NCBI GenBank assembly: GCA_003696105.1
Contig: RFGE01000209.1
Location: 1-39,336, forward strand
Source: Deltaproteobacteria bacterium
GTDB taxonomy: Bacteria > Myxococcota_A > Polyangia > Haliangiales > J016
Length of the DNA stretch: 39,336 bases
Reading direction: 5' to 3'
Both the position numbers and the translations under genes were made by a program. The first letter of the stretch is position 1. Each line of letters begins with the position of its first letter. The notes below the pieces were generated by a model. The model saw nothing but the letters and a program-made list of their open reading frames with translations, did not search any database and was not told where the DNA came from. Shown here piece after piece: positions 30,560-32,900 of this stretch.

Positions 30560-30699
30560 GCCGCCGCGCCGCCGGCGCTACCTGGCGGAAGCCCTGCGCG
30601 CACAGCAGGATGCGTGAGCCGCCGCGCCGCCGGCACTACCCGGCGGAAGCCCTGCGCGCACAGCAGGATGCGTGAGCCGCCGCGCCGCCGGCGCTACCT
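30526..30699. repeat. Three 58-bp tandem repeat units at the end of prfA
   Basis: Units at 30526-30583, 30584-30641 and 30642-30699. The first and third are identical; the second differs at two positions near its end. Unit 1 includes the last codons and stop of prfA, so its end is copied twice downstream. Each unit contains a small hairpin, CCTGC-loop-GCAGG. The last unit supplies the stop codon of the converging thioredoxin gene. Confidence 0.93.
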
Positions 30700-31221
30700 G
30701 GAAAGCAGCGCCTGGACCTTGGCCTCGACGTCGCGCTCGTCCCCCGACTCGTAGCCGGCGTGGACGTGCCGCACGATGCCCTTCGGCCCGATGATGTACG
30801 TCGTCGGCATCGTGTCCGGCGCGTACGTCTCGACCGCGTTGCCGTTGGGGTCGTAGCCGACGCGGACCGCAGACAGCCCGGACGCCTTGATGAACGCGTC
30901 GGCATTGTGGCGGTCCTTGTCGATGTTGACCGCGACGAACGCGACGTTGGCGCCGCGCTTTTTGAACTTGCGCGCCAGCTTCTCGTAGGCGGGCAGCTCC
31001 TTGCCGCACGGCTTGCACCAACTCGCGCCGAACGTGAGGACCACGACCTTGCCGCGATAGTCGCGCAGGCGGATCTTGCGGTTCTTTCGATCGCGAACGC
31101 CGCCGAGTTCGGCCGCGCGATCGCCCTTGGAAACCTTGGCAACGGCCGGCGGTGCCATCCACGTCGTCGCGATCAGCCCCAGCGCGGCAGCGAAGACAGC
31201 GGTGCGTACAACATGTGCCAT
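30694..31221 (-). CDS. TlpA/ResA-like periplasmic thioredoxin
   Basis: A 175-residue exported thiol-disulfide oxidoreductase. ATG 31221 follows an AGGAGG ribosome site nine bases away and opens a Sec signal peptide (AAALGLIATTWMAPPAVAKV). The active site is WCKPC, Cys69 and Cys72, and the cis-proline loop MPTTYIIGPKG is present. It probably reduces or isomerises disulfides, for instance in cytochrome maturation. It lies 37 bases after the DsbA-like gene, likely in one operon. Its last residues and stop run into the tandem repeat next to prfA. Confidence 0.92.
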   Translation of the reverse strand: MAHVVRTAVFAAALGLIATTWMAPPAVAKVSKGDRAAELGGVRDRKNRKIRLRDYRGKVVVLTFGASWCKPCGKELPAYEKLARKFKKRGANVAFVAVNIDKDRHNADAFIKASGLSAVRVGYDPNGNAVETYAPDTMPTTYIIGPKGIVRHVHAGYESGDERDVEAKVQALLSR

Positions 31222-31258: not shown

Positions 31259-32179
31259 TCAGCCATTCACGGACAAGATCTCCTCGATCCAATCCTTCAG
31301 GAACGGCAGCGCCGGCGGATCCGAGTACAGGGCCCCGTTGATGAACAACGTCGGAGTGCCCTCCACGTGGGCGGCGAGCCCCTCCTCCTTGTCCTTGCGC
31401 ACGAGAGCCGCGACGTCCGGGTCGGCCCAATCGCGCTTGAACCGCTCCATGTCGAGGCCGAGCCGCTCGGCGTACTGAAGGATGTCCTGGTCCGTCTGCG
31501 CCGTCTGGTTTTCGAGCAAGGTCCGGTGCATGTCCGCGAACCGCCCCTGGCGATGCGCGGCGACCGCCGCGCGCGCCGCCGCCTCCGAGTGCGGATGCGT
31601 CGACAGCGGAAAGTGCTTGAAATACACGACCACGTCGTTGGGATACGCCTCGACGACCTCGTCGAGCACCGGCCGAACGGCCGCACAGTGAGGTCAACCG
31701 TAGTCCAGAAACTCGACGATCGCGATCGGCGCGCCCGGCTGCCCGAGATGCGGGGCCGACGACGTGTCGAACGTGTATCGCTTGTCGGTGCGGTAGCGCG
31801 CGTCGTAGTAGTCGCGCACGGTCAGGTCGTCGTCGGTTTCGTGAACGAGCATCGCGACGTACCGGGCGGCGAAGCGCGCGCGCTTGCACGATGGGTCGTC
31901 GGTGAGGCTCTTGCGCAGGCTGTGGGCCTTGCCGCACGGGGATTGCAGCCGGTCGAGGAGTTTGGCGAACCGCGCTTTCTCGGCCGCCGACAACTTCGAC
32001 GTGTCGACGCCCGGCACGTCGGCAGCCGCCGGCGCCGCCGCGGCAGCCGCCGGCGGCTCGGCCACGTCGAGCGCGCGGACGACGCCTTCGTAGTCGTCCC
32101 GCGCGGTGCCGTTCTTCTTCTGGCACGCGGCGCCAGCGACGAGCGGCACAGCGGCCGCGAGAGCAACAATCCTTAGCAC
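31259..32179 (-). CDS. DsbA-family lipoprotein, probable selenoprotein with UGA at codon 162
   Basis: Read through the in-frame TGA at 31696-31694, the gene encodes 306 residues. GTG 32179 opens a lipoprotein signal with lipobox AGAAC. A linker and a conserved-looking segment (SPCGKAHSLRKSL) precede a DsbA-like thioredoxin fold: IVEFLDYG, then UGA, then PHC, VVVYFKHFPLSTHP, and EGTPTLFINGALYSD with the cis-proline. The UGA falls exactly on the first cysteine of the expected CPHC, giving Sec162-Pro-His-Cys165. The reading frame continues cleanly for 144 codons beyond it. Taken as a stop, it would leave a 161-residue fragment lacking the catalytic cysteine. A hairpin follows the UGA at SECIS distance. 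It is likely a periplasmic thiol oxidoreductase. Nonsense mutation or sequencing error remain alternatives. Confidence 0.85.
31655..31696 (-). promoter_or_regulatory. Candidate bacterial SECIS element
   Basis: Downstream of the UGA, CGGCC and GGCCG form a 5-bp stem (31683-31679 with 31674-31670) closed by a GUUC loop whose first base is G, 16 bases after UGA. An outer stem pairs GACCUC (31695-31690, including two bases of UGA) with GAGGUC (31660-31655). Placement, loop size and guanine match the general bacterial SECIS model. Confidence 0.65.

Positions 32180-32255: not shown

Positions 32256-32900
<645 letters not shown>

Follow-up and report, generated by a model that had tools for sequence, protein, structure and literature searches.

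The window, i.e., the whole stretch of 39,336 nucleotides that was analysed, comes from contig 209 of a draft genome (5.34 Mb, 98% complete, 381 contigs). The genes and features considered are the following:

31259..32179, minus strand: predicted dsbA-like selenoprotein gene, with GTG start and terminal TGA, 306 aa, active site U162-P-H-C165
32120..32179, minus strand: signal peptide and probable lipobox (...LVAGAAC19), Cys19 being invariant in the alignment
31694..31696, minus strand: in-frame TGA (codon 162), in place of the first, nucleophilic Cys of CPHC
31655..31696, minus strand: candidate SECIS A, a 42-nt stem-loop with the UGA at its base and apical loop GUUC
31649..31666, minus strand: candidate SECIS B, CUCGACG-AGGU-CGUCGAG, spacing 34 nt, -9.8 kcal/mol
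30694..31221, minus strand: downstream TlpA/ResA-like thioredoxin gene (WCKPC), with AGGAGG at 31236-31231 before its ATG at 31221
32256..32900, plus strand: divergent TetR-family regulator, whose nearest NCBIfam model is FadR (fatty acid metabolism), below cut-off

With the TGA at codon 162 translated as selenocysteine (Sec, U), the minus-strand frame 31259-32179 yields 306 residues up to its terminal TGA, and the active site reads ...VEFLDYG-U-PHC-AAVRPVLDEVVEAY... The initial annotation had placed this TGA at the first Cys of CPHC, which both the translation and the orthologue alignment confirm. The DsbA-like character claimed for the frame beyond the TGA, including the cis-proline region, holds as well: all 144 codons 3' of codon 162 are open, the DsbA features are kept, the cis-Pro motif GTPTLFING among them, and the Pfam search gives 85 bits for Thioredoxin_4 and 80.1 bits for DSBA (cut-off 25.6), both above cut-off. 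No second lesion is found anywhere in the frame. Of the two marks of a DsbA-like selenoprotein, a PF01323 match above the gathering score and a UxxC motif, the window protein presents both, the motif being UPHC.

Simple gene calling fragments the gene, as had been predicted. A translation table 11 call gives a 161-aa fragment (31694-32179), and a second ORF can be written from an internal GTG at 31669. These two ORFs favor an explanation in which the halves are separate genes, or in which UGA162 is read as some other residue (Trp or near-cognate). However, neither half would contain UPHC, UGA is the ordinary stop of the window gene and of several relatives and is thus not reassigned genome-wide, and a dedicated Sec system is present, which makes this explanation hardly credible. 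GC content at codon positions 1 and 3 is 0.71 and 0.88 before codon 162, and 0.72 and 0.89 after it, as expected of one continuous gene; at the second position it is 0.51 before and 0.40 after. An excess of A/T-ending codons around UGA162 (4/10 vs 32/296, p 0.02) disappeared in a wider window and was post hoc, and was discarded.

A part of approximately 140 residues lies between the signal sequence and the DsbA domain. The AlphaFold2 model of the protein (mean pLDDT 83.7, pTM 0.77, confident from about residue 55 on) matches 3gyk, BdbD and ScsC, indicating a predicted DsbA/BdbD/ScsC fold. The solved structures 3gyk (Silicibacter), BdbD 3eu3/3eu4 and ScsC 4gxz are alike in fold and catalytic domain, with TM-scores by target length of 0.76-0.85, and 3gyk also matches the window protein by sequence (80 bits); unlike the window protein, they have Cys instead of Sec and lack such an N-terminal extension. 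Within this extension, the helical region of residues ~60-135 (31775-32000), which has no Pfam match, carries a Cys pair conserved among orthologues (SPCGKAHSLR...CKRAPFA), possibly an additional site for redox chemistry or metal binding. The TlpA/ResA-like gene directly follows in 31 of the 34 orthologous loci, as it does in the window, and is a probable operon partner.

The initial annotation had proposed looking for selA, selB, selC and selD in the rest of the genome, and all four were found. The tRNA-Sec gene (selC, 72.9 bits) has anticodon UCA; selB (307.6 bits) encodes the GTPase, the beta-barrel and two SelB winged-helix (mRNA-binding) domains; selA and selD score 556 and 368 bits, respectively. 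Judged by its genes, the set being complete, the organism decodes Sec. The selD gene carries an in-frame UGA of its own, in the active-site stretch SHGAGUACKIPK (L022, on contig 219 of the same genome, near L022:1531), and the RNA 3' of this UGA has a weak fold with loop AGGA, 19 nt after the UGA. Among 56 relatives, in which the best matches to the window gene have no stop, selA was detected in 40. One member of the same family (G001, 1.6 Mb, listed at 98% complete) has a much smaller genome, in which selA is kept and the DsbA most like that of contig 206 described below has Cys (L082).

With a threshold of E <= 1e-28, the window gene has a match in 266 of the 290 class genomes, and the organism's own genome holds a single full-length copy. 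The codon equivalent to codon 162 is TGC or TGT in all 34 orthologous loci inspected. No UGA was found at this site among the orthologues listed, which are the best matches in the 290 class genomes and in 379 phylum genomes; the window gene itself is known from one draft genome only, with no second isolate. Three further orthologues with a single TGA were considered as selenoproteins and rejected, all three TGAs being terminal stops. The relatives agree with the expectation of either Cys or UGA at this residue: Cys is found throughout the orthologues, and UGA is found at the family level, at the equivalent residue of the 28 related genes described below, but not within the strict orthologue group.

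Of all the orthologues found, this copy alone has the UGA, which is compatible with a recent nonsense mutation, i.e., TGC or TGT changed to TGA in a fresh pseudogene or a gene for a truncated protein without active site, and a young pseudogene would likewise appear intact downstream. On the other hand, a single random nonsense change would land on codon 162 with a chance of about 1/306, the frame has no other lesion, the gene is kept in 266/290 class genomes, its own genome has no other full-length copy, and this genome, by its genes, decodes UGA as Sec elsewhere. We consider such a mutation unlikely.

A second DsbA-like gene was found in the same genome by the Thioredoxin_4 family search, on contig 206 (G000; L002 1285-2088, plus strand). 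Its sole in-frame TGA falls on the same active-site residue, ...EGFEFA-U-PFC-QRVGPT..., U94 as counted from L002:1285, and its product and the window protein share 33% identity across the catalytic domain. Many homologues of this type with exactly one TGA exist among the 290 class genomes. In 28 of the 28 distinct UGA-DsbA genes inspected, i.e., the contig 206 gene and 27 in other genomes, the TGA is the first active-site residue. The class family is located as follows:

L002, L076-L084 and L099-L120: members of the class UGA-DsbA family, at least 28 genes

Several genomes have a Cys copy adjoining the Sec copy. In three genomes of one genus (L079, L081 and L084), the active site is the variant UGYC (TUGYCEKVGST), with Gly replacing the Pro of UPxC. 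In L103/L118 (G113 contig 212), Sec and Cys DsbA genes stand in tandem, and about ten residues of the Sec copy, corresponding to a predicted strand, are missing immediately after the active-site helix.

These genes also bear on whether the true codon is TGC or TGT and the TGA a base error of a metagenome-style draft assembly. With 381 contigs, one wrong base would suffice. Yet it is very unlikely that an isolated error would fall on the sole codon at which Sec is expected, and the same replacement occurs in the contig 206 gene and its 27 counterparts in other genomes; we rate an error as less probable still than a nonsense mutation.

In a maximum-likelihood tree of 88 domains, the window gene lies within a clade (100/97) made up of 30 Cys proteins, and all 28 other UGA proteins are placed in another clade. 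The tree requires at least eight Cys/Sec changes, so such switches recur in the family. Given that the window gene stands alone inside an all-Cys clade, an independent Cys-to-Sec change is indicated, and no other orthologue found in the class and phylum genomes sampled has this predicted change. Changes from Cys to Sec in UxxC redox proteins have been described as a general trend (PMC1794560).

The UGA-DsbA family shares a stem-loop, GAGGGUC-GGUCC-GACCCUC, which starts about 11 nt after the UGA and has its loop 18-19 nt after it. Over 26 aligned rows, 94.5% of cells are paired and five present double changes, whereas a control with slid partners reached at most 52% paired cells and one double change. 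Judged by this covariation, the stem-loop is a good candidate for a class-wide SECIS. A whole-genome search with its covariance model (R1) returned the contig 206 gene only. At the window UGA, the model scores 14.1 bits, compared with 67.3 at the contig 206 gene, and leaves the hairpin part unaligned; the attempt to assign the window site to the class-wide SECIS by this model was therefore abandoned. The absence of this conserved element is a further point in favor of a nonsense mutation, and it is why, with two candidate hairpins only, we grade Sec insertion as likely and no higher.

Published rules for bacterial SECIS (bSECIS) elements call for a loop of 3-9 nt with G in the first two positions, a stem of 4-16 bp, a distance of 16-37 nt from the UGA and an energy <= -7.5 kcal/mol, and the same review mentions putative elements outside the model (PMC13188914). 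No work on a myxobacterial SECIS was found in the literature available for the search. The upper part of hairpin A, CGGCC-GUUC-GGCCG (31670-31683), has its loop 15 nt after the UGA, which is one nt short of the published range and 4 nt nearer than in the UGA homologues; the whole 42-nt stem-loop has an energy of -18.7 kcal/mol. Its loop is of the GU-C class, as in the UGA homologues, five members of the class family having AGUUC. Among the UGA genes, 27 of 28 have a GU loop at a distance of 13-22 nt from the codon on a stem of >=5 bp, and so does the window gene, compared with none of 32 Cys sites and 1.2% of random positions; since this range was set after hairpin A was seen, the counts lend support without amounting to a test.

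Hairpin B satisfies all the published rules, as do 4.6% of random window positions to an equal degree, and a nearly identical hairpin exists in one Cys orthologue. In this GC-rich DNA, 9.5% of random positions pass the rules with a GG or GU loop. Folding energies also differ little from those obtained after shuffling (z = -0.67 over 50 nt and -1.60 over 42 nt), and are uninformative as a test because the DNA is GC-rich. We regard hairpin A as more likely than hairpin B to be the SECIS, with low certainty.

Taken together, the sequence evidence suggests, with a probability of roughly 0.87, that UGA162 is read as Sec in a probably lipid-anchored DsbA-like protein. Sec is favored because a fresh nonsense mutation or a base error would have to strike, out of 306 codons, the very one at which Sec is chemically sensible, and because a paralogue in this genome, whose genes indicate Sec use, has Sec at the corresponding residue. 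The Sec reading put forward in the initial annotation is accordingly supported by the sel genes, by Cys in the orthologues and by UGA in the related genes; it is weakened by the lack of UGA in relatives of the exact subfamily and of the class-typical SECIS, the RNA signal at the window being a candidate.

DsbA-like selenoproteins (PF01323, UxxC) were reported from the Sargasso Sea in 2005 (PMC1088965) and from Anaeromyxobacter dehalogenans in 2006 (PMC1794560). The GOS ocean metagenomes include a selenoprotein "DsbA 1" (PMC2398784), and a 2026 review lists a "DsbA-like protein form 1" (PMC13188914). The window protein resembles them in that DSBA is above the Pfam cut-off, Sec is first in UxxC and Cys homologues are widespread. 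Compared by description, its subfamily differs in the N-terminal extension of ~140 residues, the probable lipoprotein nature and the TlpA pairing, and in that all orthologues found use Cys.

The best NCBIfam match is NF041057 (Rcas_1661 family thioredoxin-like (seleno)lipoprotein), which is the "DsbG-like" family of PMC13188914. Although the Thioredoxin_4 fold, the lipoprotein nature and UxxC are shared, the window protein scores 58.2 bits against a curated cut-off of 190 and aligns over the catalytic domain only, which places it outside this family. With genes of the contig 206 type, one of which is in the same genome, it shares Sec at the same residue, the fold, the selenium machinery and the GU-C apical loop, but these form a separate clade (100/97) and have the stem-loop that the window gene lacks, so that it is not one of them either. 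DsbA-like UxxC selenoproteins are thus already known; the window gene adds one whose own subfamily was otherwise found only with Cys.

In the proposed mechanism, SelB would bring Sec-tRNA(Sec) to the ribosome at UGA162. A hairpin in the RNA shortly after this codon would guide it, the stem-loop with loop GUUC (31655-31696) being the most probable one. The U162 selenol would attack substrate disulfides or thiols, the redox cycle would pass through a U162-C165 selenenyl-sulfide, and the TlpA/ResA-like thioredoxin encoded alongside would be the partner of the protein. The fold, the motif and the pairing of the two genes point to a lipid-anchored periplasmic thiol:disulfide oxidoreductase acting with TlpA; we infer the direction of its redox reaction and, from the probable lipobox, its lipidation. 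As to origin, a very young switch from Cys to Sec in a single lineage is possible, though less likely than not. One base change would have occurred in an otherwise all-Cys, near-universal DsbA lipoprotein, its rudimentary SECIS (GUUC loop, 15 nt) being tolerated by a SelB that already serves the related UGA-DsbA gene. This possibility is considerably less secure than the reading of UGA162 as Sec.

Gene callers split or discard genes of this kind, and active-site selenoproteins are consequently missed in the annotation of the clade. Since the window gene and the contig 206 gene present the same catalytic change with different RNA signals in one genome, they offer a test of the minimal SECIS for a Cys-to-Sec switch. 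From the class-wide UGA-DsbA family, with its one conserved predicted SECIS, it would seem that periplasmic thiol chemistry commonly employs Sec in this group.
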